Positions 13,465 to 46,034 of a stretch of DNA of 64,000 nucleotides are shown in pieces (the stretch's first letter is position 1; every line of letters starts with the position of its first letter). The stretch spans positions 1-64,000 of the forward strand of contig NW_004457644.1 of assembly GCF_000203815.1 (NCBI RefSeq), given 5' to 3'. The stretch is from Cavenderia fasciculata (Eukaryota; Evosea; Eumycetozoa; Acytosteliales; Cavenderiaceae). The notes under the pieces were generated by a model, which was not told the DNA's origin, ran no database searches, and saw only the letters and a list, made by a program, of their open reading frames with translations. The position numbers were made by a program, and so were the translations under genes.

Positions 13465-15374
13465 TACAAAGAATTCAAAAGTGATTTAATGTCTGTTTGA
13501 GGATGGATGACAAAGGTATGAATGGAAGGGTTGGCTTGGAGAAACTCAATTGCTTTGTCTTGATTTTAGGAATAGGAATGGGATGTCAGTTTGGTGAATC
13601 GATGGTTCGAGACTATAAACTTGGTTGATTCATTCATATCACCAACAATGATGTGTTTGATATTTGGGAATTGTTGTAAAAGTAATGGTTGGGAACTTTC
13701 TTCCAGTCGAATGGTTTCTAGCGATTGTTTGAGTGTATTGCTTGCATGTCGAGCCAAAAATGGTAGTTGTGGTCTCAAGTGAGATGGAAGTATCAGTTTG
13801 ACAAGTGGTATTTCCATCGTTGAAATAAATTGTTGTAAGATGTTACTATCTCGACAAATGAAACCATCAAGATTTAGTTTTCTCAGGTTGTTGAATGGAA
13901 ATTGTTTGTTGATGGTTGGTAGGATTGACATTTTGATGCTCTTGGCATTTTGTAGACGTTCCAGATCACAATTAGAAAGATTGTTTGTAACTGTTGATAT
14001 TGTTTCAATGGTTTTAAACAATTGATTGTTATTAAATATCTGTATTTGGTGTTGCCTTTTGATATTAAACTTTGTAAATAGTTTGTTAAATATAAATGAT
14101 CGAGTTGTCTTGGAGACGGTTGAAAACTTTGATAGTCTCAACCTGTAGATACTTTTGATGGTGTCTATCAAGTGGGATGAATAGAGAAGATCTATCAAAC
14201 CAACAATGATGAGGACAATTTGATTGAATGCTTTCAAAATCTTGATTTGATTTTAAAAGTATAATGTCTCGATTACTAAGATCTTTCTTTCCATTTGAAT
14301 TATGATACCATCTAATTATTGTACTATCACAATTACATCTATTCATACTATTCCATAATAATTTGATGATTTTGTAAATAATAATGTTTGGTAGTAGGAG
14401 TGGAATGTTATTATTATTATTATTAATGATATTACTATTATTATTACTATTTATATTATTAATGATTTGATTATTATGTTGATCATTTCTATAGAATATA
14501 TAATTTCTATCGTCTTGTCCAAGACACATATCCTTTGATGAATTAAAGTATATGTTTGATTGTAAGAGTTGTTGGTGTTGGACATCTGTCAAATTTCTTT
14601 TAGAATAAACAACTATTCTTGAAAGTTTGGATTGTTGATTGAGTTGATTACAAATCGTTGCAAGTGTTGCAAAATCAATCCTTTTAGATTTAATCTTAGA
14701 GTTGTAATATGTGGATTACTCTCTAAAAATCTACTATACATATCAGCATCACCATTTGAATATTTTGTGGTTGTCACTGTAGTTATTCTATCTGGCAGAA
14801 TAATGCTTGAAATCTCTTTACCATTTTCAAATTCAATGTGTACATGTCTTAGATTGGGTAGGTTCGTTCTTGGTGGCTGAACTTGTACTTGACTAGCGTG
14901 ATTACCGTTGTTTTGAAATAATGAATTGTATAATTTGACATCCAATTTGATAACTTGTAATGACTCTAGTACAATATCTTTTGCTTTTAATATGACTGAT
15001 GGATCATGAAAGAGTAACTTGGTCATTGGTCGATTCAAAGAGGGGACCAAATCTTCAATAGAATATCTATGGAATTGAGAGTCGATCGAGGTGAGACTCG
15101 TCAGTGCACCGAATTCAGGGTTTTGGTTTCCCAAATAAACAAGAGATTTAAGATTGGCAAGTTTTGAAAGTTTAACGAGGTTGACACTGGTTTTGTTTAA
15201 ATGATCAATTGTAACGTGTTCAATTGTCTTGACAAACCATGGTGGTGCATCAAGATACAATTGATTGTATGGTGGGAGGTAGATTCTATTTGCAACTTTG
15301 ATTCCATTGTACTGGTTGTTGATATGACTCCAAACTGATTTTTCAAACTTTTCTCTTGGCATCTTTTGAATCAA
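13465..15374 (-). pseudogene. SAP/F-box/LRR family copy A, 5' truncated and frameshifted
   Basis: Begins abruptly in the middle of a family gene (KMPREKFEKSVWSHIN at 15374), right behind the stop of copy B. Frames change near 14690 (within the IDFATLATICNQL region) and near 14155 (before KSIYRLRLSKFSTVS). A stop follows at 13566 after FTKLTSHSYS, and family similarity fades at about 13465 inside the last LRR. The N-terminal SAP motifs and first F-box-like region are absent. The first LRR region, Asn linker, second F-box-like region (LPNIIIYKIIKLLWNSMN) and CPHHCW motif are still readable. No functional product is expected. Confidence 0.9.
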
Positions 15375-15401
15375 ATGTTTGTTGTCATTTGTTGGCTATC
15401 T

Positions 15402-16496
15402 CTATCTTTTATAATGAGCAAATAATTTATCTTTCTTTGTGACAATTGATTGATTGAGTTGAGATTTTGGGTCAAAAAGTAAAGCAGGTTCAACGTCATA
15501 GTTACTATGATTAGCCAAAAAGTAAATGTTTTGTATGTGATCCAATCTATTGAAAATTGAGAACAACAAATGAGGGTCTGTTTGAAATTCAACGACCAAG
15601 GTATGGATGGAAGGGTTGGCGCGGAGAAACTCAATTGGTTGGTCAAGTTCAAAGGCATGGGTGGTCAGTTTGGTGAATCGATGGTTAAAGGCTAATGGAG
15701 TTGTGAAAAATTTTGATTGGTCCTTCTTTGCCTTTAAAATATGAGAAATGATGTGTTTGATATTTAGGAAAGTTGTAAAAGTAATGGATCTGAAGTTTCC
15801 TCCATATCCATGGTTTCGAGAGATTGCTTGAGTGTTGCAGTTGCATATTGAGCCAAAAATTGTAATACTGGTCTCAATTGAGACAGGGGGAGTGTCAGTT
15901 TGACAAGTGGTATTTCCAAAGTTGAAATGAATTGTTGCAGATCGTCTCGAAAACGTATACCATCAAGATTGAGTTTTCTAAGGTTGTTGAATGGAAATTC
16001 TGAAGAATCTTGGCTTGTTGTAGTCGTTTCATATCTAGATAACTTACATATTTAATCGATATTCTATCAATGGTTTTGATTATTTGATTGTCATTCAATT
16101 CAAGTTTACCAAACTTTGTAAAAAGATTGTTAAATACAAATGATCGAGTTGATTTGGAGATGGTCGATAACTTTGATAGTCTCAACTGATAGACACTTTT
16201 TAGATGGTGTCTATCAAGTGAGAGTGGGAGGTATAGAGCCGATCTATCAAACCAACAATGATGTGGACAATTTGATTGAATGCTTTCAAAATCTTGATTT
16301 GCTTTTAAAAGTAAAATGTTTCGCGGTATCCTCCACAACTTTCTTTCTTGTTGTGTATTGTTTGATTTTGAAATTGAATAATCACAATTACATCTATTCA
16401 TACTATTCCATAATAATTTGATGATTTTGAAAATAATAGTATTTGGCAGTGTTGGTAGTAGGAGTGAAGTAGTTGTTGAAATATTAATATTATTTA

Positions 16497-16550
<54 letters not shown>

Positions 16551-18300
16551 TAATATTATTAATGATTTGATTATTTTGTTGATCATTTCTATAAAATATA
16601 TATTTTCTATAGTCTTGTCCAAGAAACATATCCTTTGATGAATTAAAGTATACGTTTGATTGTTGGAGTTTTTGATGTTGCGTAACTGTCAAACTTCTAT
16701 TTGAATATACAACTATTCTTGAAAGATTTGATTGTTGTTGTTGTTGGAGTTGTTGACAAACATTTCCAAGTGTTGTAAAATTAATATTTTTATATTTTAA
16801 TCTTAGAGTTGTAATATGTGGATTATTCTCTAAAAATCTACAATACATATCCTCATTGCCATTCGAAAACTTTGTAGCTGTCACTGTCGTTACTCTATCT
16901 GGTAGAATAAATTCTACAATGTCTTTGTTACCATTTACAAATTCAATGTGTACATGTCTTAGATTGGGTAGGTTCGTTCTTGGTGGTTGGATTTGATTAT
17001 TGGTTTGAAGTAATGTTTTGTATGTATTGACATCCAATCTGATAACTTGTAATGACTGTAGTACAATATCTTTTGCTTTTAAAATGACCGATGGGCTATC
17101 AATGATTAACTTGGTCATTGGACGATCCAATGAGAGTACATAACAACCGATGTTATTGTCATTGCAATTGTCAGCAGTGATAGAGTTTAGACTCTTTAGT
17201 GAGCGGTAATCAGGGTGTTGACCCCCCAAGACCACAATCGATTTAAGATTGTCAAGTTGTGAAAGTTTAATGACACCTACGTTGATCCTGTTTAGTTCAC
17301 CAACTGTAACATGTTCAATCGACTTGACAAACCAAGGTGGTGCATCAAGATACAATTGGTTTGATGATGGGAGGTAGATTCTATTTACCAATTTGATTCC
17401 ATTGTTTTCATAACTGATATGACTCCAAATAGACTTTTCAAATGCTGCTCTTGAATCTCGATCTCGTGGTGGAGCAGTAAAATTACGAGAGATCGTAGTC
17501 GAGAGATGATGGAATACCTTTTTAGAGATGGTCAACATAGTCTGCTTCCATTGTATTTCGATGGGATGAAAACCACTTATTTCAATGTTGAAGTGAGCCC
17601 ATGGATGATACAATGAATAATCTCTATAGTACATTGCATGTTGTGGGAATCGTTGATTGTTGTCTTTAACTTGATCGATAAACTGACTGGTTTTAGAGTT
17701 TAATTGTTGACCGAGAATCTTGAATGGATAGCTTTCACTTGATGAGATAATCTTACGATTCATCTCGGTTTGTAGGTCTTGTAACTCTTTAGGATAGATA
17801 CAAGTACAATACTTTGCATCATTCCAAGCCTGTGTTAGAATACTCGAAATGATTGACCAAGGTAGCGAGTATCCACCACTCAACGATGTTGGTGTAACCT
17901 CTGTCTTTTGATATACCACTATATGCTGAATCAATATCTTCTTTATATCACTCTCTCTATACTCTATCTTTAAATCATTACATATACTAATGACTTTTTG
18001 TTTACTCAAACTTGATAACTCTTCTTTTGAATATATTTTCTCTCGATTATCATTACTATTATTACTATTACTATCATTACTATTATTACTAGTCTTAATA
18101 TTATTATTATTATTATTATTATCTCTATTATTATAATGATTAAGTATTTGATCGATGATGTATGGTTTTTTATCCTTTGCAGTGATTGTATCGATCTTTA
18201 AAGCTTGACATATTTCTATTAAATCATCTTTATATAATTGACCTAAACTACTCTTTGTTCGATATTCTACTATATCTTCTATATTAAACTTTCTTTTCAT
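15402..18300 (-). pseudogene. SAP/F-box/LRR family copy B, two frameshifts
   Basis: Starts normally (MKRKFNIEDIVEYRT) and is open for 801 codons through the first LRR half, a 20-odd Asn linker and the second F-box-like region. Near 16010 a deletion after AKILQ removes the SILPTINKQ segment and shifts frame. The remaining sequence still reads EFPFNNLRKLNLDG in another frame. A second shift lies near 15780, at the QFPNIKHII position (a TAA is met). The true family C-terminus (QSIVTKKDKLFAHYKR, stop 15404-15402) is present downstream. If both shifts are sequence errors the gene would be full length. Taken as written, a product would lack the last LRR region. Confidence 0.88.
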
Positions 18301-18510: not shown

Positions 18511-19647
18511 TTATTTGTTGATCTGTAATCCAAATCTCTTAAAATGAATAAATTGTTTATCTTTTTTAAAGACAACAACTTTTGAAAACATAGATTTGCA
18601 ATCTTGATGGTTAAAAATGGCTTCATGTTCCATTTCAAAACGATAATCGATATTATAGTAAATGTTTTTGATTTGATTGAACCCTTTGAAATGATCTAAA
18701 AACATTTCTATAAGAGTGGTATTGAGAATGACAAGAGTGTGGATAGAAGGGTTCCATTTGATAAAATCCATTAATTTATGTGGGTCAGTATGTGTTGTCA
18801 GTTTGGTGAACCGATGGTCCGAGACAAATGGTATTTCGAGGAGTGTTTCTTTATGATAAGCACTTAATCCAGCAAACATAATGATATGTTTGATATTTGG
18901 AAATGACTGTAAAAGAATTGGTTCCGAATTTACTTCCATATCCATGCATTCAAGTGATTGTTTGAGTGTTGAGCTTGCATGTTTAGCCAAATATGGTAGA
19001 ATTGGTCTAAATTGAGATGGGAGTGTCAATTTGACAAGTGGTATTTCCAATGTTGAAATGAATTGTTTCAACTTTTCATTTGATCGTACCTTGAGACCAT
19101 CAAGATTAAGTTTTCTAAGATTGATAAATGGACGTACTTTGTTGATGATTGGTATTTTTGTTAATTGGAGATTGGTTGCATCTTGCAGACGATCCAAATC
19201 ACCAGGTTTACTTGCCATGGTTGATATCTTTGTAATGGTTTTGATACATTGCTTTTCATTGAATTCAGATAATTGGTATTCTTTGATTTGGCCAAACTTT
19301 GTAAACAACTTTTTAAATACAAATGATCTAATAGATTTGGAAATGGTTGACAAGTTTGATAATCTTAATCGATAGATACTTTTTTGTGTAAAAGCAGAAC
19401 GCAATCTAAATGCTGGAATGTACAGAGAAGATCTATCAAACCAACCATGATGAGGACAATTTGATTGTATTGATTCAAATTCTCCATTTTCCTTTCCAAG
19501 TAGAATGTCTCGACTGGTCATTGTCTTTGAATCAAAATACCATTTTGAAATTGAATCATCACAATTACATTCATTCATACTATCCCATAATAATTTGATG
19601 ATATTGGAAATAATAATGTTTGATAATGTTGGAAGGAGAGGGGTTGA

Positions 19648-19690
<43 letters not shown>

Positions 19691-21435
19691 ATTTGATTAT
19701 TTTGTTGATCATTTCTATAAAATATATATTTTCTACTCTTTTTTAATGAACTCTTCTCCTTTGATGAATTAAAGTATATGTTTGATTGTTGGAGTTGTTG
19801 ATGTTCAATATCTGTCAAACTAGAATGAAAATAAACCATTATTCTTGAAAGTTTTGATTGTTTGAGTTGAAGTGGGATTTTTGCAATGGTTGTAAAATCA
19901 TCTCTGAATAATAATCTGAGACTTGTAATATTTGGATTGTTCTCTAAAAATCTTAAATAGGTATCTTCAACATTGTGTACTGACAATCTAGTCACTCTAG
20001 CTGTCAGTGTAGTTACTCTATCTGGTAAAATAAAGTCCATGGTGTCTTGTGTACCACTTTCAAACTTGATGTGTACATGTCTAAGATTTGGTAGGTTTCT
20101 TGGTGATGATGATTGTTGATCTTGACTAGTGTTGTTGTTTTGAAATATTTCCTTGTAAGCTATATCATCCAATCTAATAACTTGTAATGATTCTAGTACA
20201 ATATCCTTTGCTTTTAAAATGAATGATGGATTTGAAATGATAAGCTTTTTCATTGGACGATCCAATGACACTAACAACCTTTCCATGTAACTATTGCTCG
20301 AACTATCAATGGTAATAGATGTGAGATTCTTGAATGTTATGGCCATATCTTCAATATAATCGTATCCCAAGAATACAATTGATTTGAGGTTGACCAGTTT
20401 TGAAAGGTTTTTAACAAGTGGCTTAATGTTTTTATCCATAAAATCAAACGTTAGGTGTTCAATTGTTTTTGTAAACCATGGTGGTGCATCAAGATACACT
20501 TGATTCGATGATGGAACAAAGATTCTATTTGCAACTTTGATTCCATTGTATTCATTACTGATATGACTCCAAACCGATTGTTCAAATGCTACTCGAGGTA
20601 TCTCTTTTTCTCTTGTTGGAAGAGTAAAAGTACGAGGGATGGTAGTGGAGAGATGATGGAATACTTTCTTGGAGATGGTCAACATCGTCTGCTTCCATTG
20701 TATTTCAACGGGATTGAATACATATTTGTCAGTGTCAAAGAGTCTGAATTGGGCCCATGGATGATACAATGAATCATCTCTATAAAACATTGCATGTTGT
20801 GGACAGCGTTGATTGTTTGATTTGACTTGATCGATAAATTGACTGGTTTTAGAGTTGAATTGTTTGGCTAGAACCTTGAATGAGTATTCATCGTTTGACA
20901 AGATTAGTTTATGATTCAACTCTTTTTGTAGTTCTTGTAGCTCTTTAGGATAGATACAACAACAATACTTTGCATCATTCCAAGCACGAGTGAGAATACT
21001 CGCAATGATTGACCAAGGTAGCGAGTATCCACCACTCAACGATGTTGGTGTAACCTCTGTCTTTTGATATACCATTATATATTGTATCAATATCTTCTTT
21101 GTATCACTCTCTCTATACTCTATCTTTAAATCTTTACATATTGTAATGACTCTTTGTTTACTCAAACTTGATAACTCTTCTTCTGTATATATTCTCTTGT
21201 TATCTTGTTGTTGTTGTTGTTCTACTATATTACTAATACTATCATTACTATTATTATTATCTCTATTATTATAATGATTAAGTATTTGATCGATGATATA
21301 TGATTTAGTTTCCTTTTCATTGATTGCTATCTCTAACACTTGACATATTTCTAGTAAATCAGCTTTATACAACTGATTCAAACTACTCTTTGTTTGATAT
21401 TCATCAACATCCTCTATCTTAAACTTTCTTTTCAT
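18511..21435 (-). CDS. SAP/F-box/LRR family copy C, intact (974 aa)
   Basis: Single exon. Order of parts (copy C numbering): SAP-like motif 1 at about 15-52 (LNQLYKADLLEICQVLEI...KSYIIDQIL); Asn/Gln-rich spacer; SAP-like motif 2 at about 84-122 (LSKQRVITICKDLKI..RESDTKKILIQYI); F-box-like helix 1 at about 138-158 (SLPWSIIASILTRAWNDAKY) followed by CCC; CPQH near 219; LTISKKVFHHLSTTIPRTF; irregular leucine-rich region at about 318-560; poly-Asn linker near 588; F-box-like helix 2 at about 598-625 (LSNIIISNIIKLLWDSMN) with CNC; CPHHGWFDRSSLY near 665; STISKSIRSFVFKKLFTKF; second leucine-rich region at about 778-945. F-box/LRR proteins usually choose substrates for SCF ubiquitin ligases, and SAP motifs often bind DNA. 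Both roles are inference from weak resemblance. No family name is known to me. Confidence 0.88.
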
Positions 21436-21562: not shown

Positions 21563-24233
21563 TTATTGTTTGATTCTATTGAAAAGAATAAATAGTTTAC
21601 CTTTCTTTAAGATGGTTGATTGATTGAATTGATTATTATAAAGTGTAGAGTGTACCATCGGGCAACCTGGAGAAAGCATAAAGTAAATATTTTGAATGTG
21701 ATCCAACCCAGTGACAGAGTTGTTCCAACACGGTAGAGCGAAATTTGATAGAGTTGGAACACGAATGACAAGAGTGTGAATAGACTGGTTTGATCGAAGA
21801 AAATTAAATGATTTGTCCTTGTGATAGGTGGTCAGTTTGGTCAATCGATTAGAGACGAATGGGGTTTTGAGTATGCTTTGTGTTGATAGATCAGTAGACT
21901 CTGAAACAATGATGTGTTTGATATTTGGGAATTGTTTTAAGAGCGATAAATCTGAATCTTGTTTCACTTCCATTCTCTCCAATGATTGTTTGAGTGTTGG
22001 TCTTAGATGTCGAGCCAAAAATGGTAGTATTGGTTGCATGTAATGAGGAAGTATTAGTTTAACAAGTGGCATTTCCAACGTGGAAATGAATTGTGCCATC
22101 TCTATCTCAATATCGTCATGTTCAACCAATCCATTAAGATTAAGTTTTCTAAGATTGTTGAATGGATGTTGTTTGGTGATGATTGGTAATCGAGAGAAAC
22201 TTATGCTAGTGGCATCTTGTAGACGATCTATATCGCCTGATCTGGGATGCCCAATCGATATTCTTTTAATTGTTTTGATTAGTTGACTTTGTTTGAATTG
22301 TAATAATGGTGGTTTGGTTTCAGGAAACTTTGTAAATAATTTGTTAAATACAAATGACCGAATAGATTTTGAAATGGTTGACAACTTTGATAGTCTCAAC
22401 TGATAGACACTTTTTTGTTCGAATCTATTGAGAGAGGATGGGTATATAATCAATCGATCGAACCAACAATGGTGCGGACAATTTGATTGGATTGTTTCAA
22501 AATCAAAATTTGATTTTAAAAGTAGAATGTCTCTAGCAAGCCTACTCCTCTTTGGATCAAAAAATGATTTCACAATTGGAAAATCACAATTACATTGATC
22601 CATACTATTCCATAATAATTTGATGATTTTGTAAATAATTATGTTTGATAGCGTTGGAAGGAGTGGAGGGGTTGAATTATTATTATCGATCGTTGTGATA
22701 GAAGTATTTTTACTATTACTATTATTATTATTATTTATGTTATTATGAATGATTAGATTATTTTGTTGGTCATTTCTATAGAATATATATTTTCTTTCGG
22801 ATTGTCCAAGACTCAGATCTTTTGATGAATTAAAGTATAGATTTGATTGAATGAGTTTTTGATGTTGGATGTCTGACAAACCAATATTAGAATAAGCCAT
22901 TATTCTTGAAAGATTGGATTGTTGAAGATGACGAGAGATTGTTTCAATGGTTTCATAAACATTTCGGCATTGTATATTGTTCAATCTGATACTTGTGACA
23001 TGTTGATTATTCTCTAAAAATCTCCAATATAATTGATCTGTGGCTGTCGAAAACTTTGTAGCTGTCACTGTACATGTCTTAGATTTGGTAGGTTTCTTGG
23101 TGGTGACGATGATGATTGATCTTGACTCGTGTTATTGTTGTTGTTGTTTTGAAATATTTCCTTGCATACTATGGCATTCAATTTGATAACTTGTACCGAC
23201 TCTAGTACAATATCTTTTGCTTGCAATATGGCCGATGGATTGGAAAAGATAAGCTTTCTCATTGGACGATCCAATGACCTGACCAATTCTTCAATGTATT
23301 CACCATTGGTGAATTCACTGTCAATAGAGATGGTGGTGAGATGTCTGAGCGCAGTGACAGAAGGATACCTGGACCCAAAGAATGTAATCGATTGGAGATT
23401 GACAAACTTTTCAAGGTTCTTGACAAGTGCATTATTGATTTTGTGGGTCGTTGATGCATCAAATGTTACGCGTTCTATCGACTTGACAAGCCAAGGTGGT
23501 GCATCAAGATACATTTGATTTGGTCCTGAAATATAGATTCTATTTGCAACTTTGATTCCATTGTATTGATTGTTGATATGATTCCAAACTGATTTTTCAA
23601 ATACTGCTCTTTGCATAGCTTGGTCTCTCTCTGGTAGAGTAAAAGTACGAGGTATTGTAGTGGAGAGATGATGGAATACTTTCTTGGAGATGGTCAACAT
23701 AGTCTGCTTCCATTGTACTAGAATTAGATAGATATTGTTTACCGATGAATTAGCCCATGGATGATACAATGAATCATCTCTATAGTACATTGCATGTTGT
23801 GGGCAGTGTTGATTGTTGGATTTGACTTGTTCCGTAAATTGACCGATTTTAGAGTTGTATTGTTTGCCGAGAATATGGAATGTATAGCTATCTCTGTAAA
23901 CGTTCCAATTCAACTCTCTCTGTAGTTGTATTTGCTCTTTAGGATAGATACAAGTACAATACTTTGCATCATTCCAAGCCTGTGTGAGAATACTCGCAAT
24001 GATTGACCAAGGTAACGAGTATCCACCACTCAACGATTTTGGTTTAACCTCTGTCTTTTGATGTACCAATATATATTGAATCAATATCTTCTTTGTATCT
24101 TTTTCTCTATACTCTATCTTTAAATCATCACATATACGACTGACTCTGTATTTGTTAAGACCTAATAACTCTTGTTCTGTGTATATTCTATTCTTCTCTT
24201 TTTCTAGTTGTTCTAAATAAGCATCACCATCAC

Positions 24234-24287
<54 letters not shown>

Positions 24288-33558: not shown

Positions 33559-36206
33559 TTATTCATTATTAATGTCTGTGAATATGTTATTCACATTCAA
33601 CTGAATAAATTTTTTATCTTTCTTTAAGACAACTGATTTGCAGAATGATTGGTTGAAATAAAGAGAACCAGCATAGTAAATATTTTTAATATGCTTCAAC
33701 TGTCCAATGCTTTCAAAAACAGTATAGTTAGCAAATTGGATGACAATGGTATGGATAGACTGATTGGCGCAGAGAAAATCGATCAAATACGGGCGTGGTT
33801 TGCCATAGGTTGTCAGTTTGGTGAATCGATGGTTGTAAACAAATGGTGTTCTGAAAAAGGTTGTCAGGGGTGGCTCAGATTCGAATCCAAACTTAAAAAT
33901 GAGGTGTTTGATATTTGGGAATTGTTGTAATTGCAATTGATCTGAATCTCTTTCCACATTCATTCTCTCGAGTGATTGTTTGAGTGTTGAACTTGCATGT
34001 TTAGCCAAAAATGGTAGCATTGGTCCCAAGTGAGATGGGAGTATCAGTTTGACAAGTGGTAATTCCAATTTTTCCAAGTCTATTTTGTCAACTAGAAACT
34101 TGGGTTCCTTTACACTATCAAGATTAAGTTTTCTAAGGTTGGTGAATGGATGTAGTTTGTTGATGGTTGGTAATTCTGAAAACTGGATGCCCTTCAATTT
34201 GATGGTCTTGGCTTGTTGGAGAAGTTCCATATCGATTGGAATTGTTTCAATAGTTGATATTTTTTTAATTGTTTTGATAAATGGTTTTTGATATATTTCC
34301 AATATTTGATTGACCAAACTTTGTAAATAACTTTTCAAATATAAATGATCGAGTTGTCTTGGAGATGGTTGAAAACTTTGATAATCTTAATTGATAGATA
34401 CTTTTTTGTGTAAAAGTAGATATATTTTGAAATACTGGTAGGTATAGAGATGATCTATCAACCCAACCATGATGAGGACAATTTGATTGAATGCTTTCAA
34501 AATCTTGATTTGATTTTAAAAGTAGACAGTCTCTATGAGTCATTGTCTTTGAATATAATTTTGCAAATGAATCATCACAATTACATTCGTTCATACCATT
34601 CCATAATAATTGGATGATTTTGTAAATAATATTGTTTGGTAGTGTTGGTAATAAAATTGTTGTCGTATAATTATTATTATTATTATTTATATTATTATTA
34701 TTATTATTAATGATTTGATTATTATGTTTATCATTTCTATAGAATATATATTTTCTATTCGAATGTCTGAAGCTCATATCCTTTGATGAATTAAAGTATA
34801 CGTTTGATTGTATGAGTTGTTGATGTTGGACTGTTAAAGCATAATCAGAATAAACCACTATTCTTGACAACCTTGATTGTTTGAGAAGTGTGGAAATGAT
34901 TCCAATCGTTTGAAAATCACAATCCACTATGATACTTGTAATATGTGGATTATTCTCGAAAAATCTACTATATTTGTCTTCGTAACATGTGCTCATCTTT
35001 GAGGCTGACAATTTAGATATTCTAGATGGTAGAATATAGTCTTTAATTCCTCGACTTTGTGTATACTGAATGTGTACATGTCTTAGATTGGATAGGTTTC
35101 TTGGTGATGATGGTCGTTCTTGACTGGTGTTTTGGAATAACAACATGTATAATTTGTCATCCAAACAGATAACTTGTAATGATTCTAGTACAATATCTTT
35201 TGCCTTTAAAATGACTGATGGATCTTGAGGTAGGAGTAGCCTTTTCATTGGACGATCCAAAGAGTCGACTAGTTCCTCGAGACCTTCTCTGAGTAATTCC
35301 ATAGTGATTGAGGTGAGATTCTTTAGTGGACCGATGTTTGGGTATTGGTCTCCAAAATAGACAATTGATTTGAGATGGACGAGTTTTGAAAGGTTATTCA
35401 AAAGTGGTCTAGGTGGTAATGAATCAAGTGTAACGTGTTCAATTGACTTTGTAAACCAAGGCGGCGCATCAAGATACACTTGATTGGATGATAGAACACA
35501 GATTCTATTTGCAATTTTGATTCCATTGTATTCATTACTGATATGACTCCATATTGATGTTTCATACTCTGCTCTTTCAGCTGCTTTGAATTTTCCTCCC
35601 CAAGGAAGAGCAAAAGTACGAGGTATTGTAGTTGAGAGATGATGGAATACCTTTTTGGAGATGGTCGGCATCGTCTGCTTCCATTGTGTTTCTTCTATAG
35701 CTACTCCAAACATACTGTAGTGAGCCCAAGGATGATATAACGAATCATCTCTATAGTACATTGCATGTTGTGGGCAGTGTTGATTGTTGGATTTGACTTG
35801 TTCGATGAACTGACCGATTTTAGAGTTGAATTGTTTACCCAGAAAATTGAATGAATACGGTTCCCTTGTATTTAGTTGATTAAATTTTCTTTGTAGGTCT
35901 TGAAACTCTTGAGGATAGATACAAGTACAATACTTTGCATCATTCCAAGCACGAGTGAGAATACTCGCAATGATTGACCAAGGTAACGAGTATCCACCAC
36001 TCAACGATGATGGTGCCACTCTATTCTTTTGATATACCATTATATATTGAACCAGTGTTGTCTATGTATGACTCTCTCTATACTCTATCTTTAAATCATT
36101 ACATATTGTAATGACTTTTTGTTTATTAATACGTAACTCTTGCTCTGTATATATTCTATTAATGTTATCTTGTTGTTGTTCTATATTATCATCATCTTTT
36201 TGACTA

Positions 36207-36237
<31 letters not shown>

Positions 36238-36412
36238 TATAATGATTAAGTATTTGATCTAAGATGTATGGTTTATTATCATCTTGATTGATTGCGATCT
36301 CTAACACTTGACATATTTCAATCAAGTCATCTTTATATAATTGCTTCAAACTACTGTATGTTTGATAGTCATCTATATCTTCTATATAGAACTTTCTTTT
36401 TATTCCTCTCAT
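33559..36412 (-). pseudogene. SAP/F-box/LRR family copy I, two frameshifts and altered start
   Basis: At the usual start position the ATG is ATA, so the first usable start is three codons upstream (MRGIKRKFYIEDIDDYQT at 36412). The frame breaks at about 36060 just after IEYRESHT, in the end of SAP-like motif 2. It resumes as LVQYIMVYQKNRVAP and is open to about 34265 through F-box-like region 1, LRR 1, the linker, F-box-like region 2 and KLFTKFGQ. A second shift at about 34310 precedes QKPFIKTIKKIST, and LRR 2 is open to 33559. Part of this copy (34730-34826) is identical over 97 bp to inverted copy G. Confidence 0.88.
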
Positions 36413-36540: not shown

Positions 36541-36630
36541 ATTGAGAACTTGTACAGACTTGAGAACAATATTGTTGGCTTGCAAAATGAGTGATGGATA
36601 TGGCAAGAGTAACTTGGTCATTGGACGGTA
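36541..36630 (-). pseudogene. short SAP/F-box/LRR family fragment
   Basis: About 29 codons on the minus strand read RPMTKLLLPYPSLILQANNI followed by VLKSVQVLN and a stop. They match the middle of LRR region 1 (DRPMTKLL..PSVILKAKDIVLESLQVI) of the full copies. The rest of 36413-36870 shows no gene. Confidence 0.8.
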
Positions 36631-36870
36631 TGCACATCATGTCACATCTTGTATTTGACTATTAATACTAACACCATCTGTTTATTCATCAAGACACATT
36701 ACTTTATAAAGAAAAGATTCATTGATAATCAAAAGAATAAGTTAATGGCTGGATCAACATCATCTAATTTATAATAATAACAATAATAATAATATAGGCA
36801 AACAATACAATACTCGATTATTTATATGTACAAACATTTTGGTATAGAGTGATTATTCTATTCTATTCTT

Positions 36871-37112
36871 TTACTTCTTGTTGATATCACTCTTACCACC
36901 CAATTTATTGATTAGTTTAGTTTCTTTTATGATGATATCATGTGATAATGCTTTACACATGTCATAGATGGTTAGACTTGCAACCGATGCACCTGTCAAT
37001 GCTTCCATCTCCACTCCAGTCTTTCCACTACAAGACACTGTACAATCGACTTGAACGTGAGTCTTGTCGACAATGTTAATGTCAAATGTACACGATTCAA
37101 TGATCGCACCAA
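36871..37112 (-). pseudogene. moaC: molybdopterin biosynthesis MoaC C-terminal fragment
   Basis: About 75 uninterrupted codons end at TAA (36873-36871). They contain the MoaC hallmark [20 protein letters not shown] followed by [23 protein letters not shown]. MoaC (MOCS1B) with MoaA makes cyclic pyranopterin monophosphate, the first step of molybdenum cofactor synthesis. No start or N-terminal half is present: upstream, at about 37112, the sequence changes into gene-family-like DNA. The fragment therefore looks like a piece of a real gene carried into, or left behind in, this rearranged cluster. A last exon whose other exons lie elsewhere is not excluded, but no acceptor-linked upstream exon was found nearby. 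Confidence 0.8.
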
Positions 37113-37524
37113 ATGTTCCAAAGCGCCAAGATAGAGGCGGTCGATAGAGTCAATGACAATTGAGGTGATGTTATTTGGGTACTGAAATAAATCAAGCTTG
37201 AGTGCCCTGTCAACTGAATGGATGTCAAGTTGGGAAGGGTTGAGAGTGTCTTTGAAAGAACCTGAGAGTTTGGTTGGTCATTGAACTTGAAAGCAGTTAC
37301 ACTTTCAATACTGTCTTTGATATTCTGTGGTGCCAATCATTCCAAAAACATGGAATAAACAACCTCTTTACATTCTTGATTCCATTGAACTCTTTTTTGA
37401 TGTGACTCCAAATTGATTGCTCATAAATGACTTGTTCTGTCTCTGAAGTAGAATCATCAAGATTTCTTGAACACTTTGAAATGCGTAGATCTCTTGGCTG
37501 TGTAGAGATTTTTTTTCTTGTCAA
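37113..37524 (-). pseudogene. diverged SAP/F-box/LRR family fragment
   Basis: A minus-strand piece reads IYEQSIWSHIKKEFNGIKNV..LFIPCFW, the counterpart of FEKSVWSHINNQYNGIKVANRIYIP. In another frame it continues APQNIKDSIESVTAFKF...LPNLTSIQLTG, the counterpart of APPWFVKSIEHVT and the first LRR. It is more diverged than the other copies, so it may come from a different subfamily. Confidence 0.65.
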
Positions 37525-37608: not shown

Positions 37609-38697
37609 TCAAACTATCTGTCTCTTGTAATGAACAAATATTTGATCTTTTTTTTGGACATTTGATTGTGAGAATGGATATTTCGGGTGGAAAAGTGAAT
37701 CGCGATCAATTTCATAGAAACTAGGACAAACTAAATAGTAAATATTTTGGATATGATGCAATCCGTGGACAGTTTCCAAAAACAATTTAATGTCTGTTAA
37801 ATAATGAACGACAAAGGTATGGATCGATGGGTTGGCGCGGAGAAAATCAATTGATTCGTTGACGTAATAGGAATGGATAGTTAACTTGGTGAATCGGTGG
37901 TTAAAGGCTAATGGTCGAGTTGAAAAAAATGTTGGTGGTGTGTTTTGACTCATATAACCAACAATGATGTGTTTGATATTTGGGAATTGTTGTAAAAGTA
38001 ATGGATCGGAATCTTCTTCCAATTGAATGGTTTCGAGTGATTGCTTGATTGTTGAACTTGCATGTTGAGCCAAAAAGGGTAGTGCTGGTCTCACGAAAAG
38101 TGGAAGTATCAGTTTGACAAGTGGTAATTCCAATGTTGAAATAAATTGTAGTATGTTACAGTCTCGACTCTGTATATCACCAATATTAAGTTTTCTAAGA
38201 TTGTTGAATGGAAATTGATTGGTGATGGTTGGTAGGATTGTCAATCGAATGGTCTTGGCATCTTGTAGAGGTTGCATATCGACAGGTGTACTAGTAATCG
38301 ATATTCTTTTAATTGTTTTGATTAATTGATTTTCATTGAGCCATTTCAACTTTGTAAATAATTTGTTAAATATAAATGATCGAGTTGATTTGGAGATGGT
38401 TGACAAATTTGTAAATCTCAAACTGTAGATACTTTGTTGTGGGTATCTTTTAAGAAAGAGCGGGGTGTATAGAGAAGATCTATCAAACCAACAATGAAGT
38501 GGACAATTTGATTGAATGCTTTCAAAATCTTGATTTGATTTTAAAAGTATAATGTCTCGTTTGGTAAGAGTCAACTCTCTCTTGTTTGTTAAATCGTAAC
38601 ATCTAACAATTGAATCATCACAATTACATCTATTCATACTATTCCATAATAATTTGATGATTTTAAATATAATATTAGTTGGTAGTGTTGGTAATAG

Positions 38698-38743
<46 letters not shown>

Positions 38744-40470
38744 ATTTGATTATTTTGTTGATCATTTATATAAAATATATATTTTCTATAGTCTTGTCCA
38801 AAACTCGAACTTTTTGATGAATTAAAGTATAGATTTGATTGTAAGAGTTGTTGATGTTGGATTTTTGTCAAGCTACTATCATAATGAATCATTATTCTTG
38901 AAAGATTGGATAGTGTGAGCTGATCACAAATGGTTCCAAATGTTGTTAGGTTAGAACTGCTGTATGCCATTCTTAGAGATGTAATATGTGGATTATTTTC
39001 TAAAAATCTCGATAATATATCCTCGTTGCCATATGCATAAGATGTTGTATTTGACAATGTAGTGACTGTGTATGGTAGAATAATGTCTGTAATGTCTTTG
39101 ATAGTTCTTTCAAATTGAATGTGTACATGTCTTAGATTGGGTAGATTTCTTGATGATGTTTTGTTTTGAAATAATTCCTTGTATGTCTTGACATCCAGTT
39201 TGATAACTTGTACCGACTCTAGTACAATATCTTTTGCTTTTAAAATGGCTGATGGAGTTCCAAGGAGTAACTTCGTCATTGGACGATCCAATGACTCGAC
39301 AAAATCTTCAATGGCATTGACAAAGAATTGAGAGTCAATAGAGATAGAGGTGAGATTCTTTAGTGTTCCTAATTCAGGCTTTTGGTGTCCCAAGAGTGCA
39401 ATTGATTTGAGATTGACTAGTTGTGATAGCTTACTGGGCTTGACAGTTGTTAATTCATAGAGTGTAACGTGTTCAATTGTCTTTGTAAACCATGGTGGTG
39501 CATCAAGATACACTTGATTTGAATGTGGAACATAGATTCTATTTGCAACTTTAATTCCATTGTACTGGTTGTTGATATGACTCCAAACTGACTTTTCAAA
39601 TACTGCTCGAGGTGCACCTTGATCTTTTAGTGGAAGAGTAAAAGTACGAGAGATCGTAGTCGAGAGATGATGGAATACCTTTTTGGAGATGGTCAACATC
39701 GACTGCTTCCACTGTATTTCGATGGGATGCAATTCTCTTTGTCCAAAGCTGAAATGAGCCCAAGGATGATACAATGAATCATCTCTATAATGCATTGCAT
39801 GTTGTGGGCATCGTTGATTGTTGTCTTTAACTTGTTCTGTATAATGACCGATTTTAGAGTTGAATTGTATACCTAGAACTTTTACTGAATAGGTATCATT
39901 TGATAGATGTATCTTCTGATTAAACTCTCTCTGTAGTTCTAATAACTCTTTAGGATAGATACAAGTACAATACTTTGCATCATTCCAAGCCTGTGTGAGA
40001 ATACTCGCAATGATTGACCAAGGTAACGAGTATCCACCACTCAACGATGATGGTGTAACCTCTGTCTTTTGATATACCATTATATATTGTATTAACATCT
40101 TCTTTGTATCACTCTCTCTATACTCTATCTTTAAATCATTACATATAGCAGCCACTTTTTGTTTACTACGACTTGATAACTCTTCTTCTGTATATATTCT
40201 TTTGTTATCTTGTTGTTGTTGTTGTTGTTCAGTATCTTGATTATTATTATCATTATTATTACTACTATTATCATTATCATTATTATTACTATTATTACGA
40301 TTATAATGATTAAGTATTTGATCGATGATATATGATTTAGTTTCCTTTTCAGTGATTGTATCAATCTCTAACACTTTACATATTTCTATTAAATCAGCTT
40401 TATACAACTGATTCAAACTACTCTTTGTTTGATATTCATCTATATCTTCTATCTTAAACTTTCTTTTCAT
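37609..40470 (-). CDS. SAP/F-box/LRR family copy J, intact (953 aa)
   Basis: Start chosen at 40470 (MKRKFKIEDIDEYQT), matching all other copies. The frame is open a further 35 codons upstream, but that extension is a hydrophobic/basic stretch not shared by relatives. Parts in order: SAP-like motif 1 (LYKADLIEICKVLEI), a long Asn/Gln spacer, SAP-like motif 2 (SKQKVAAICNDLKI), F-box-like region 1 with CTC, CPQHAMHYRDDSLYHPW, ISKKVFHHLSTTISRTF, LRR 1, Asn linker, F-box-like region 2 (LPTNIIFKIIKLLWNSMN, CNC), CPLHCWFDRSSLY, SKSTRSFIFNKLFTKL, LRR 2, and a C-terminus IFVHYKRQIV. Purine-rich leader before the ATG. Single exon. Function not known. Confidence 0.88.
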
Positions 40471-40631: not shown

Positions 40632-43559
40632 TCAATTCTCTTTCTTTAAATGAATAAATAGGTTATCTTTCTTTACAACCATTGCTTTAGAAAACATAGA
40701 TTGGCATGGATGGGAATAAATATCGTCATGTTGCAATTGAAAATTAGAAAAATCAATCAAATAGTAAATGTTTTGGATATGATGCAACTTGTTGATATGG
40801 TCCAAAAAATATTTAATCCAAGTTGTATTATTGGTAATCACTAATGTGCGAATAGACTGCTTTGATAAGAGAAAATCAATTGATTTTTGTGGATCCGCCA
40901 GAGTTGTCAGTTTGGTGAATCGGTGGTTCGAAACAAACGGCGTTGTGAGAAAGGTGGAAGGATTGTTTTGATTTTTCTTCTTAATTGATACATCCATTAC
41001 AATGATATGTTTGATATTTTGGAATGGTTCCAAGTGAATGGGATTAGAGTTGACTTCTACTTGAATACTTTCCAGTGATTGTTTGAGTGTTGCACTTGCA
41101 TGTTTAGCTAAAAATGGTAGTATTGGTCTCAAGTTGAGTGGAAGTGTCAGTTTGACAAGTGGTATTTCCAACATTTCAATGAATTGTTGTAAACTTTCTA
41201 TAGATTGTACCTGGAGATTAGAAAGATTAAGCTTTCTAAGATTGTTGAAAGGATGATGTTTGGTTATGGTTGGTATGCTTGGCAATTGAATGGTGTTGGC
41301 TTGTTGTAGAAGATCCAGCTGTTCATCTGAACTTACAAAGGTTGATATTCTTTTAATGGTTTTGACAAATGGTTTGAATTTGAATGCAAATAATGGTTGT
41401 GTACCAAACTTTGTAAATAACTTTTCAAATACAAATGATCGAGTTGACTTGGAGATGGTCGACAACTTTGATAGTCTCAACTGATAGATACTTTTTTGTG
41501 TGTTATAAAGAGAGAGTGGGAGGTACAAAGAAGATCTATCAAACCAACCATGATGAGGACAATTTGATTGAATCGATTCAAAATCTATATTTGATTTTAA
41601 AAGTAAAATGTCTCGATTGGTACGATTTGTTTTGTACTGCCCCCTAGAAATTAAACCATCACAATTACATCTATTCATACTATTCCATAATAATTTGATG
41701 ATTTGATTAATAATAATGTTTGGTAATAAAGGAGTAGTTGAACAATCATTATTAAATATTGTTGGATTATTATTATTATTATTGAGAGTCGTGGTATTAT
41801 TATTAATGATTTGATTATGTTGTTGATCATTTCTGTAGAATATATATTTTTTAAACTCTTGTCCAAGACTCATATCCTTTGATGCATTTAAGTATATGTT
41901 TGATTGTATGAGTTGTTGATGTTGGATATCTGTCAAACTTTTTTGAGAATAAACCATGATTCTTGATAGTTTGGATTGTTGTTTGAGTTGATTACCAATG
42001 GTTTCAAGTATTTCAAAATTAAATACTATTTTAGATGTTAATCTTAGAGAAGTAATATGTGGATTAATCTCTAAAAATCTCCAATATATATCCTCATTGC
42101 CATATGGATAGTTTGAATTGGACAGTGTAGTGACTGTATCTGGTAGAATAAAGTTGGTAATATCTTTTTCATCTATAAATTCAATGTGTACATGTCTTAG
42201 ATTGGGTAGGTTTCTTGGTGATGATTGTTTGTCTTGGTCTTGACCAGCACCGGTGTTTTTAAATAATGCCATGTGTGTGTCGACATCCAATCTGATAACT
42301 TGTAATGATTCTATCACAATATCTTTTGCTTTTAAAATGACCGATGGATAAGCTAAAAGTAACTTGGTCATTGGACGATCCAATGTCATGACCAAATCTT
42401 GTTCAATGGCTTGTTCATAGAACTGAGAGTCAATGGTGATAGAGGTGAGATTCTTTAGTGTTCCTAATTCAGGATCTTGGTGTCCCAAGAGTGCAATTGA
42501 TTTTAGATTGACTAGTTGTGAAATATTACTGTGATTGAAAGTGGTTAAATCATAGAGTGTAACATGTTCAATTGACTTTGCAAACCATGGTGGTGCATCA
42601 AGATACACTTGATTTGAATGTGGAAGATAGATTCTATTTGCAACTTTGATTCCATTGTACTGGTTGTTGATATGACTCCAAACTGATTTTTCAAACTTTT
42701 CTCTTGGCATCTTGTTTTCATCGTTTAATGGGAAAGTAAAAGTACGAGAGATTGTAGTGGATAGATGATGGAATACTTTCTTGGAGATGGTCAACATCGT
42801 CTGCTTCCATTGTATTTCAATGGGTTTGAATTCACTTAACTCAATGTCAAAATGAGCCCATGGATGATACAATGAATCATCTCTATAGTACATTGCATGT
42901 TGTGGGCAGTGTTGGTTGTTGGATTTGACTTGTTCTGTATATTGACCGATTTTAGAGTTGAATTGTTGACCGAGAATCTTGAATGAATAGGTATCTCTTG
43001 ATGCCTCTATTTTACAATCTAAATCTGTTTGTAGATCTTGTAAACCATTAGGATAGATACAAGTACAATACTTTGCATCATTCCAAGCACGAGTGAGAAT
43101 ACTCGCAATGATTGACCAAGGTAACGAGTATCCACCACTCAATGATGTTGGTGTAACCTCTGTCTTTTGATATACCATTATATATTGTATTAACGTCTTA
43201 TTTGTATCACTCTCTCTGTACTCGATCTTTAAATCTTTACATATATTAATGAGTCTTTTTTTAATACAGCTTGATAACTCTTTATCTGTATATATTCTCT
43301 TGTTATCTTGTTGTTGCTGTTTATCTGCATCCTGATTATTATTATTATTACTATTACTGTTATTATTATTCCTATTATTATTATTATTATTATAATGATT
43401 AAGTATTTGATCGATGATGTATGTTTTTGTATCATCATCATTGATTGTATCTATCTTTAACACTTGACATATTTGTAGTAAATCAGTTTTATACAACTGA
43501 TTCAAACTACTCTTTGTTTGATATTCATCTATATCTTCTATCTTAAACTTGCTTTTCAT
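40632..43559 (-). CDS. SAP/F-box/LRR family copy K, intact (975 aa)
   Basis: Single open exon from MKSKFKIEDIDEYQT to LFIHLKKEN. It differs from the consensus start (MKRKFK) by one residue. Both SAP-like motifs (LYKTDLLQICQVLKI; IKKRLINICKDLKI), F-box-like region 1 (SLPWSIIASILTRAWNDAKY, CTC), CPQHAMYYRDDSLYHPW, LTISKKVFHHLSTTISRTF, LRR 1, a linker of mixed Asn/Thr, F-box-like region 2 (LPNIIINQIIKLLWNSMN, CNC), CPHHGWFDRSSLY, SKSTRSFVFEKLFTKF and LRR 2 are all present. LRR 2 has a lysine/asparagine insert (VSIKKKNQNN) not seen in the others. Function not known. Confidence 0.88.
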   Translation of the reverse strand: MKSKFKIEDIDEYQTKSSLNQLYKTDLLQICQVLKIDTINDDDTKTYIIDQILNHYNNNNNNRNNNNSNSNNNNNQDADKQQQQDNKRIYTDKELSSCIKKRLINICKDLKIEYRESDTNKTLIQYIMVYQKTEVTPTSLSGGYSLPWSIIASILTRAWNDAKYCTCIYPNGLQDLQTDLDCKIEASRDTYSFKILGQQFNSKIGQYTEQVKSNNQHCPQHAMYYRDDSLYHPWAHFDIELSEFKPIEIQWKQTMLTISKKVFHHLSTTISRTFTFPLNDENKMPREKFEKSVWSHINNQYNGIKVANRIYLPHSNQVYLDAPPWFAKSIEHVTLYDLTTFNHSNISQLVNLKSIALLGHQDPELGTLKNLTSITIDSQFYEQAIEQDLVMTLDRPMTKLLLAYPSVILKAKDIVIESLQVIRLDVDTHMALFKNTGAGQDQDKQSSPRNLPNLRHVHIEFIDEKDITNFILPDTVTTLSNSNYPYGNEDIYWRFLEINPHITSLRLTSKIVFNFEILETIGNQLKQQSKLSRIMVYSQKSLTDIQHQQLIQSNIYLNASKDMSLGQEFKKYIFYRNDQQHNQIINNNTTTLNNNNNNPTIFNNDCSTTPLLPNIIINQIIKLLWNSMNRCNCDGLISRGQYKTNRTNRDILLLKSNIDFESIQSNCPHHGWFDRSSLYLPLSLYNTQKSIYQLRLSKLSTISKSTRSFVFEKLFTKFGTQPLFAFKFKPFVKTIKRISTFVSSDEQLDLLQQANTIQLPSIPTITKHHPFNNLRKLNLSNLQVQSIESLQQFIEMLEIPLVKLTLPLNLRPILPFLAKHASATLKQSLESIQVEVNSNPIHLEPFQNIKHIIVMDVSIKKKNQNNPSTFLTTPFVSNHRFTKLTTLADPQKSIDFLLSKQSIRTLVITNNTTWIKYFLDHINKLHHIQNIYYLIDFSNFQLQHDDIYSHPCQSMFSKAMVVKKDNLFIHLKKEN

Positions 43560-43774
43560 CTCTTTCTTTTATCTCTCTCTCTCTCTCTCTATCTTTGTAT
43601 CTATCTGTAACCCAAGACGTTTGTGATACTAAAAGTGGTTATGAAAATAACTAAGTAAGAAGTCAAGATAATTTATTTATTTATTTTAAATTTAATTTAA
43701 TTTTATTTGTTTATACCTTGTCATAGGCTACCTACCTACCTATCTGTACTTTAAGAATCCTTGTGTAGGACGAG

Positions 43775-46034
43775 TTATTTTGTAGTGTTCAAATACAAAA
43801 GATCTTGTTGCCTTTGATATGGTTGACAATTTTGCTGAAAGAGATGATTACGATTGTGTCGACGGATATCAGAATAAGACAATGGGAGGTACATAATAGA
43901 TCTATCCGACCAACAATGATATTTACAATTTGATTGAATGGTTGATTCAAAATCTCCATTTGTCTTTGCAAGTAGAATATCGCTACTTGATAAAGACTTT
44001 GAATAAGCAACCAAATGATCATCACAATTACATTGATTCATACTAGTCCATAGCAATTTGATGATTTGATTGATTATATGATTTGGTAATGTTGGTAATA
44101 TTATATTATTATTATTATTATTATTGGTGATATTATTATTATTATTTGTTGTTGTTGTAATTATTTCAATATTATTAATGATTTGATTATTTTGTTGACC
44201 ATTTCTATAGAATATAAATTTTCTAGTCTTTTGTCTTGGACCTATATCCTTTGATGAATTAAAATATAGGTTTGATTGTATTAGTTGTTTATGTTGAATA
44301 GTTGTTAAAGCATAATCAGAATGCACCATGATTCTTGAGAGTTTAGATTGTTTGAGAAGTGGAGGGATTTTTCCAATCGTTTCAAACATTTTAAGATAAG
44401 TAGTCATTTTACCAATAGCTCTAAACCCATCATGAAACTTGAGTCGCAGACTTGTGATGTGTGGATTCTTTTCTAAAAACTCTCCATAAATAGTCTCCTC
44501 TCCTTTGGGAATATAATCATGGTCTGAAAAAAATCCAAATGATCCAACGTCTACACACTTTACCACTGACACTGTAGTGATTGTATCTGGTAGAATAAAG
44601 TCTGTGATGTGTTTGTTGGCTCTTTCATCTCTGTATTGTATTGTATTGGGGTTAAAGTGTACATGTCTTAGATTTGGTAGGTTTCTTGGTGACTGTTGTT
44701 GTTGTTGTTGTTGTTGTTGACTAGTGTTGTTGTTGTTGTTTTGAAATAATCCCTTGTATGTATTGACATCCAAACTGATAACTTGTACCGACTCTAGTAC
44801 AATATCTCTTGCTTTTAATATGGCTGACGGATAAAACATGAGTAACTTGGTGATTGGACGATCCAATGACTCGACCAATTCTTCAATGTAATCAAGGTCG
44901 TATTGGTGTTCAACTGAAATCGAGGTGAGATGATTAAATGTTTCGACTTCAAGATAATCATAACCCAAGAGCACAATTGATTTGAGGTTGACTAGTTTTA
45001 AAAGGTTGTCGAAAAATGAATTACTCTTGCATTTGTCGAGGGCATTTTCTTCAAATGTTAAGTGTTCAATCGACTTTATAAACCATGGTGGTGCATCAAG
45101 ATACACTTGATTTGAATGTGGAATATAGATTCTATTTGCAACTTTAATTCCATTGTATTGGTTGTTGATATGATTCCAAACTGATTGTTCAAATGCTGCT
45201 CTTGGCATCTTTTGATCATTTGTTGGTATTCTAAAAGTACGAGGTATTGTAGTGGAGAGATGATGGAATACCTTTTTGGAGATGGTCAGCATCGTCTGCT
45301 TCCATTGTACTTCAATGGGTTGGAATTCTCTTTGTCAAAAGCTGAAATGAGCCCAAGGATGATACAATGAATCATCTCTATAAAACATTGCATGTTGTGG
45401 GCATCGTTGATTGTTGGATTTGACTTGATCTGTATATTGACCGATTTTAGAGTTGAATTGTTTACCGATAATTTGAAAGATCACGGGTGCGTTTGTTAAA
45501 TGTAGTCTACTACTAACCTCCTCTTGTAGATCTTGTACCTCTTTAGGATAGATACAAGTACAATACTTTGCATCATTCCAAGCCTGTGTGAGAATACTAG
45601 CAATGATTGACCAGGGTAACGAGTATCCACCACTCAATGATGATGGTGTAACCTCTGTCTTTTGATACACCATTATATATTGAATCAATAAATATCTTCT
45701 TTGTATCACTCTCTCTATACTCTATCTTTAAATCTTTACATATTGTAATGACTCTTTGTTTATTCAAACTTGATAACTCTTCTTCTGTATATATTCTCTT
45801 GTTATCTTGTTGTTGTTGTTCAGTATCTTGATTATTATTATTATTACTATTATTATTACTTTTACTATAATGATTAAGTATTTGATCGATGATATATGAT
45901 TTTATATCCTTTGCAGTGATTGTATCTATCTCTAACGCTCTACATATTTCTATTAAATCAGCTTTATACAACTAATTCAAACTACTCTTTGTTTGATATT
46001 CATCTATATCTTCTATCTTAAACTTTCTTTTCAT
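43775..46034 (-). pseudogene. SAP/F-box/LRR family copy L, multiple stops and 3' truncation
   Basis: The family start is present at 46034, but a TAG replaces the Gln codon of SSLNQLYKADL at about 45974. A 4-bp insertion near 45690 (KKIFIDSIYNG instead of KKILIQYIM) shifts frame. A TGA lies at about 45334 in HFSF*QREFQP, where copy J has Gly. The part 45292-43775 is open from MLTISKKVFHHLST through LRR 1, the linker and F-box-like region 2. It then shifts after SDIRRH and stops within SKSTRSFVF. LRR 2 is absent. Four independent lesions make this a clear pseudogene. It is the first (5'-most) member of the minus-strand array. Confidence 0.92.

Follow-up and report, generated by a model that had tools for sequence, protein, structure and literature searches.

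A tandem array of SAP/F-box-like/leucine-rich repeat genes in Cavenderia fasciculata encodes candidate ubiquitin-ligase receptors with two putative zinc sites

Introduction

The first 64,000 nucleotides of contig NW_004457644.1 of Cavenderia fasciculata (assembly GCF_000203815.1, forward strand; C16:1-64000 in our numbering, hereafter the window) hold a dense array of related genes, which raises the question of what kind of protein they encode and what these proteins may do. An earlier note, made from the letters alone, described about a dozen intronless genes filling 32 kb and proposed that they encode ubiquitin-ligase adaptors that diversify as immune-type or allorecognition families do. Here we report that the array belongs to an apparently unnamed, large family that is bunched in arrays, and whose proteins are probably ones that mark particular proteins for destruction. 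More specifically, we give about an even chance to the proposal that the intact copies are substrate receptors of SCF-type (Skp1/cullin-1) ubiquitin ligases, built on a zinc-stapled, duplicated unit of F-box-like helices and leucine-rich repeats (LRRs).

Results

Intact copies and domain organization

Using copy K as a tblastn probe together with minus-strand open reading frames (ORFs), we identified 13 related units, remnants included, between positions 13458 and 46034. This agrees with the dozen or so genes described previously; all are on the minus strand, head-to-tail, except for one inverted and rearranged unit (29036-30270, plus strand). Four of the 13 are uninterrupted single ORFs of 953-975 amino acids: B (unit 3, 18511..21435, 974 amino acids), H (unit 8, 30539..33430, 963 amino acids), the reference copy K (unit 11, 37609..40470, 953 amino acids) and L (unit 12, 40632..43559, 975 amino acids). 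The three others are 64-67% identical to K. Pairwise ratios of nonsynonymous to synonymous substitution rates (dN/dS) among these copies are 0.49-0.59, with bootstrap limits of 0.41-0.73. The intact copies are under purifying selection, and thus we conclude that they are, or until recently were, working proteins. The long ORFs, their identity to K and the dN/dS values together exclude a chance array. All four can be read without introns, so the description of the genes as intronless holds for the intact window copies, but the N-termini of relatives elsewhere leave introns or other starts possible.

From N- to C-terminus, the window copies encode SAP1, an Asn/Gln-rich linker, SAP2, a first F-box-like segment, LRR1, an Asn-rich linker, a second F-box-like segment and LRR2. 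The two halves align in one register, with 22-29% identity between the ten C-half rows and the N-half of K. Both the domain order given in the earlier note and its view of the halves as duplicates are therefore upheld, with support that is unequal among the parts.

SAP motifs

In K, SAP1 comprises residues 14-57 (40300..40431, minus strand, as for all K features below) and the SAP2-like block residues 96-136 (40063..40185). The SAP1 sequences of seven window copies matched a profile of 15 SAP domains from the same genome with a probability of 89% (E 2.3e-6), which none of 40 shuffles reached, and they show the SAP helix-loop-helix sequence profile. The SAP motifs of 12 relatives, chosen by eye from 21 N-termini, gave a probability of 93.5% (again 0 of 40 shuffles). 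SAP2 reached 17%, as did one of 40 shuffles. Thus, of the two SAP-like motifs proposed previously, the first is well supported and the second is marginal. Both blocks form helices in an AlphaFold2 (AF2) model of K, with predicted local distance difference test (pLDDT) scores of 66-78 for SAP1 and 53-79 for SAP2.

The Pfam SAP model (PF02037) did not exceed its cut-off in any of five single copies or in 26 aligned members (seven window and 19 relative stretches). The sole SAP-type Pfam match was to SAP_new25 (PF18953; best E 0.0094, 16 bits versus a cut-off of 26.3), and none of the genome's 20 PF02037 places, compared by eye, lies inside the family. Several of the 21 relatives have no SAP-like motif in the N-terminal stretch compared. 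In relatives L012, L015, L017 and L022, a SAP-like motif is in frame but precedes the first ATG that opens the main ORF, which suggests another start or an intron in these genes.

Candidate metal sites

The most conserved feature of the family, and its strongest signature, is a C-x-C...C-P-x-H element that each half carries between F-box-like helix 1 and helix 2/3. The earlier note did not mention these pairs, nor how far the array has decayed or how widely the family is spread through the genome. We aligned four window copies with 20 relative ORFs of at least 700 amino acids from 18 regions. In this 24-row alignment, 42 of 48 possible elements fit the pattern L-P-x-x-I-I-x-x-I...C-x-C-x(22-62)-C-x-x-H followed by a helix with S-K or a close variant; the other six did not fit and were not extracted. 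Helix 2/3 begins 72-110 residues after the first Cys in N-halves and 54-72 residues after it in C-halves.

Ligand columns are invariant. At the first site, both Cys of the C-x-C are conserved in 22 of 22 ungapped rows and the following Cys and His in 24 of 24; at the second, all four columns are conserved in 24 of 24 rows. These are alignment positions C167, C169, C220 and H223, and C614, C616, C655 and H658. The numbering omits the initial Met, so one is added for the protein. In K the sites are C168-x-C170...C221-P-x-H224 (39799..39969) and C615-x-C617...C656-P-x-H659 (38494..38628). No other Cys column reaches 70% of the 24 members, although each protein has about ten further Cys. The next most frequent are C303 (15 of 24) and C715 (16 of 24), located at like places after each F-box-like segment. 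The four conserved Cys/His ligands per half are, at the sequence level, of CCCH type, and the confinement of such Cys conservation to the ligand columns suggests two putative zinc sites per protein. No metal-type site was found in the 25 F-boxes from the same genome that served as our F-box template.

Leucine-rich regions and structure models

LRR1 and LRR2 of K comprise residues 331-571 (38758..39480) and 740-953 (37612..38253). The AF2 model, built from 12 window sequences, has a mean pLDDT of 56, with values up to 79 in the SAP blocks, 87 in LRR1 and 90 in LRR2, and both leucine-rich regions contain repeating LxxLxLxx strand-helix units. Across the 26 members, Pfam LRR families were matched in single members only (best E 0.00025).

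The top three Foldseek matches of the model are chains of COI1 (E 3.8e-8, 4.4e-6 and 3.0e-5); only one further match, an internalin variant in fourth place, is below E 0.001. Chains of the ubiquitin-ligase entries 4i6j, 6wcq and 8cdj, which we take to be FBXL-type or SKP2 receptors, follow at E 0.0041-0.015. As the model is dominated by LRRs, these matches count for the LRR only. A PDB sequence search with K returned one chance-level match (E 2.2), and a search with a profile of the 26 members returned 19, mostly LRR proteins (best E 0.0052). Thus, the two leucine-rich regions of the earlier description are clear in the model repeats, the Pfam LRR matches and Foldseek. The K model is good in this part and in the SAP part, but the F-box region is resolved in neither of the two models built.

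F-box-like segments

The F-box-like segments of K span residues 144-286 (39613..40041), with an LPWxII helix, an insert and an SK helix, and residues 591-711 (38338..38700). Both have profile matches, and the second is also seen in the half-to-half alignment. Using hhalign, we compared the family with a profile of the 25 own-genome Pfam F-boxes. We scanned the 24-row alignment without anchors, in 56 windows of 45 columns each; the nine best windows all fell on helix 1 (K 54-184 and 569-640) or helix 2/3 (K 228-299 and 655-706) of the two halves. The template columns matched were 7-31 for helix 1 and 27-43 for helix 2/3. Joined helix 1 and helix 2/3 profiles of either half beat 60 of 60 shuffles; LRR control segments were reached by 9-17 of 60. 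In an AF2 model of the C-half segment from 18 window sequences, helices were placed at 7-20, 85-92 and 97-110, among others, at low confidence (mean pLDDT 41).

A number of results weigh against an F-box assignment, and that C-half pLDDT is one of them. No F-box (PF00646 or PF12937) exceeded the Pfam cut-off in the five single copies, no F-box model is among the 25 families listed of the 27 matched by the 26 members, and none of the genome's 65 PF12937 places, compared by eye, is inside the family. The hhalign F-box probabilities are 2.5-25.5%, and at most 22.7% in the unanchored scan. For N-half helix 2/3 alone, 2 or 3 of 60 shuffles scored as high. The in-register joined alignments had helix 2/3 anchored on [SCN][KR]; one joined N-half alignment was partly out of register, so that F-box helix 2 faced CxC and W instead of the SK helix, and in the same analysis the joined C-half profile aligned over helix 1 only. 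The shuffle test is lenient, since two N-half segments set against the SAP profile also outscored all 60 shuffles, although over 6-7 columns and at lower scores. The F-box-like blocks of the K model have pLDDT values of 22-53. Normalized by target, the TM-scores of the top three Foldseek matches are 0.25-0.26, low values that reflect the several domains and loose regions of the model; other matches include internalin, TLR8 and NLR chains. Two F-boxes in one receptor would, moreover, be unusual. The two F-box-like helices of the earlier note are therefore partly borne out: the places matched are those expected of F-box helices, but the matches are weak and below the Pfam cut-offs. The putative ubiquitin-ligase adaptor role that it proposed is plausible.

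Genome-wide spread and origin of the array

We searched the 31.0 Mb genome (21 contigs) and merged the union of six protein searches; the tool scores best candidates only, and sites may be missing. Among these candidates, the family comprises 95 pieces, which fall into 44 sites and occur on 16 of the 21 contigs. Outside the window array are 84 pieces, 40 of them at least 2 kb long, compared with the 20 relative ORFs covered by the 24-row alignment. Nineteen sites contain multiple pieces, in 15 cases all on the same strand. Sites C1:1269414, C1:1600232 and C15:345841 each rest on one short match (E 1.7e-6 to 4.2e-4) and may be non-members.

In a tree of the 26 aligned members, the seven window copies form one clade on a long stem, with support of 100/100, and thus the array originated at this locus. 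The positions of two other rows, which have very long branches, are uncertain. A single-protein search, which detects close relatives only, found none in viral contigs or prokaryote genomes. Pfam scans of the window copies and aligned members gave no named family with this domain order. Nor was a named dictyostelid SAP/F-box/LRR family of this order among the literature matches listed, although databases of the dictyBase type may carry automatic names for individual copies. This agrees with the earlier note, which knew of none. In C. fasciculata, 78 lineage-specific expansion families have been counted (PMC8535579, in excerpt), and the terms F-box, leucine and SAP do not occur in that paper.

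Selection within the leucine-rich regions

The dN/dS point estimates for the four intact copies, given without limits per segment, are below one in 15 of 15 segments. Values are 0.63 for LRR1, 0.56 for LRR2, 0.30-0.55 for the F-box-like helices, 0.35-0.41 for SAP, 0.75 for the second-site insert and 0.94 for the Asn/Gln linker. In a nine-copy comparison of N-halves, only a linker window exceeds one (1.48); one LRR1 window is at 0.99.

We also calculated entropy by structural class from 12 window rows, broken copies included. Mean values for strand, helix and loop are 0.77, 1.12 and 1.22 in LRR1 and 0.94, 1.45 and 1.19 in LRR2. For non-hydrophobic residues, LRR1/LRR2 values are 0.75/1.08 for strand, 1.23/1.59 for helix and 1.31/1.30 for loop. 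LRR strands carry the usual recognition face. Strands are the least variable class and dN/dS is below one, which speaks against receptor-style diversification and does not support the immune or allorecognition pattern suggested previously. Positive selection in the LRRs was not found by segment dN/dS or entropy; with four intact copies, such selection may still act at a few sites.

As a comparison we considered the Tgr/IPT allorecognition proteins, which we take to be marked by IPT/TIG domains; TIG is not among the 25 listed families of the 26 members. An IPT/TIG-domain protein (E 1.1e-5) with a Ser/Thr-rich tail and hydrophobic C-terminus is encoded directly beside the array (12543-13379, plus strand), and an ORF with no Pfam match lies just upstream of it (11603-12055, plus strand).

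Decay of the array and neighboring genes

Nine of the 13 units are frameshifted, stopped, truncated or represented by remnants only, as assembled; some of the breaks may be assembly errors. Except where stated, all are on the minus strand. Unit 1 (13458..15461) is a broken copy in several frames with stops; its tblastn match to K covers residues 253-904 and lacks the SAP part. Unit 2 (A, 15405..18300) has an 801-amino acid ORF from SAP to the second F-box-like segment and a broken frame in LRR2, and has lost one Cys ligand of the first site (FPQH). In this unit, the only one examined in this respect, the frames change with an overlap or gap of only a few bases; thus a frameshift is likelier than an intron as the cause of the break. 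Unit 4 (D + C, 21563..24468) is split near K residues 454-475 into ORFs of 467 and 445 amino acids. Unit 5 (24743..25730) is a degenerate remnant. Unit 6 (F, 25911..28869) has an N-half ORF of 564 amino acids, with the C-half in a different frame.

Unit 7 is the inverted and rearranged copy on the plus strand (29036..30270; K residues 1-33, 539-574 and 583-894), and its last part (K residues 894-950) is on the minus strand at 30296-30466. Unit 9 (J, 33601..36403) is interrupted by a stop in SAP2 and by a broken frame in its second half, unit 10 (36544..37434) consists of two short remnants, and unit 13 (M, 43788..46034) has frame shifts and stops and ends inside the second F-box-like segment. 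A tblastn match of K also revealed an outlying copy fragment around SAP2 (9050..9418, minus strand). The best reading of the array, with four of 13 units uninterrupted, is a locus-specific radiation of duplication followed by decay.

Other features of the window include a serine carboxypeptidase (2242-3048, plus strand; Peptidase_S10, E 1.9e-41). The match covers only the second part of the model, and thus this is a fragment or exon. Also present is an ORF with a weak, sub-threshold DUF2726 match (3369-4637, minus strand; E 0.0006), long acidic repeats and, by eye, a nuclease-like core; the adjoining ORF (4746-5312, minus strand) has no Pfam match. At 52593-55287, an RD/SR-type repeat gene with a guanine plus cytosine content of about 42% has long ORFs on either strand; the plus-strand reading has no Pfam match.

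Discussion

Proposed mechanism and alternatives

If the intact copies are SCF-type receptors, the insert of 54-110 residues, counted from the first Cys, would separate helix 1 from helix 2/3 in each half. The putative C-x-C...C-P-x-H zinc site would pin this insert and close the helices into a Skp1-binding face. The leucine-rich region downstream would hold the substrate, and the N-terminal SAP may keep the receptor on DNA or chromatin, or act as a helical protein-binding tether. Duplication of the entire unit could give a single protein two Skp1 modules, or pair an active module with a structural one. A bolder version, that these are a previously undescribed zinc-stapled F-box class, in duplicate with LRRs and SAP, forming bivalent DNA-tethered ubiquitin-ligase receptors expanded to about 40 genomic sites in one dictyostelid genome, is possible but doubtful. 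If the receptor reading is right, a metal-site F-box variant would help to explain receptors missed by profile searches in protists, and the family would exemplify receptors that combine two F-box/LRR units per chain with a chromatin-type tether. With eight conserved ligand positions, the zinc-stapled reading is directly testable by mutation.

The resemblance to F-boxes could instead be superficial, and the proteins SAP-tethered zinc/LRR scaffolds with no role in ubiquitination. The LP and SK helices would then cap the LRR, the CxC...CPxH site would stabilize the cap, and the proteins would organize chromatin or nucleic-acid-bound proteins. The best-supported parts, SAP1 and the LRR, suit such a scaffold, as do the weak, Pfam-negative support for an F-box and the fact that the most conserved feature is a metal-type site, which none of the 25 F-boxes compared from this genome has. 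It would leave unaccounted for, however, that the nine top-scoring windows of 56 against the F-box profile fall on the F-box-like helices of the two halves, and that the LRR-dominated model finds its best fold matches in F-box/LRR receptor chains. We regard this scaffold as somewhat unlikely.

The organization of the locus invites two further alternatives. Tandem arrays, duplication with decay and a large expansion would be expected of an immune-type or allorecognition set, in which the LRRs diversify under selection, recognize foreign proteins and direct them to proteasomal degradation. A role in pathogen resistance has been suggested for nematode F-box genes (PMC5041008, in excerpt), and the LRR1 window at 0.99 in the nine-copy comparison leaves some room for positive selection at a few sites that four copies would not reveal. 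Yet among the four intact copies every segment, both LRRs included, has a dN/dS point estimate below one, and strand residues are the least variable class in LRR1 and LRR2 alike; we consider an immune set improbable. The same decay might indicate that the window array is mostly a relic, the family's working members being elsewhere in the genome, since nine of 13 units are interrupted or remnants and one is inverted. Against this, four copies are open over 953-975 codons, their highest upper bootstrap limit for dN/dS is 0.73, and some breaks may be errors of assembly. We find a relic similarly improbable.

Comparison with known systems

A very large dictyostelid LRR family is the FNIP-repeat family (OG5_126643; PMC4334915 Table 2 and PMC9525666, in excerpt), which is linked to F-box proteins in D. 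discoideum (PMC9485057, in excerpt). The FNIP family has 55 members in D. fasciculatum compared with 206-381 in three others (PMC4334915 Table 2, in excerpt), and the SAP/F-box-like/LRR family might fill part of its niche there. FNIP (PF05725) is not among the 25 families listed of 27 for the 26 members, and those FNIP places listed, of 193 in the genome, all lie outside family pieces. At one site (L016, C18:1556500-1561000), FNIP repeats (C18:1556628-1557152) immediately precede a diverged member at C18:1557860, which is on the same strand.

A small DNA-binding-type fold is also joined to a multicopy F-box family in Caenorhabditis F-box A2 (PMC12062965, in excerpt), for which signatures of purifying selection are reported. 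That family belongs to a different lineage and has a transposase helix-turn-helix, not SAP. According to the same excerpts, the helix-turn-helix does not function in transcriptional regulation, may be a protein-interaction platform and has been proposed to broaden the set of protein substrates. This calls for caution in reading the SAP as DNA-binding.

Divergent F-box proteins of Dictyostelium, identified as Skp1 interactors, are F-box-like only with inter-helix inserts and often carry LRRs (PMC9485057, in excerpt). A D. discoideum Skp1 interactome comprises 92 proteins, of which 38 are predicted to be F-box-like if insertions between the three helices are allowed. Receptor-like domains are present in 24 of the 38, and most predicted receptor domains are LRRs. 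Thus, a split F-box is acceptable in the Dictyostelium group. The terms zinc and SAP do not occur in the main text of that paper.

Other close counterparts are the SCF receptors of the FBXL and COI1/TIR1 types, in which, as in this family, F-box-like helices are followed by LRRs, and which include the best structural matches (COI1). Unlike them, the family is below the Pfam F-box cut-off and has the CxC...CPxH insert between helix 1 and helix 2/3; its whole unit is duplicated, with SAP at the N-terminus.

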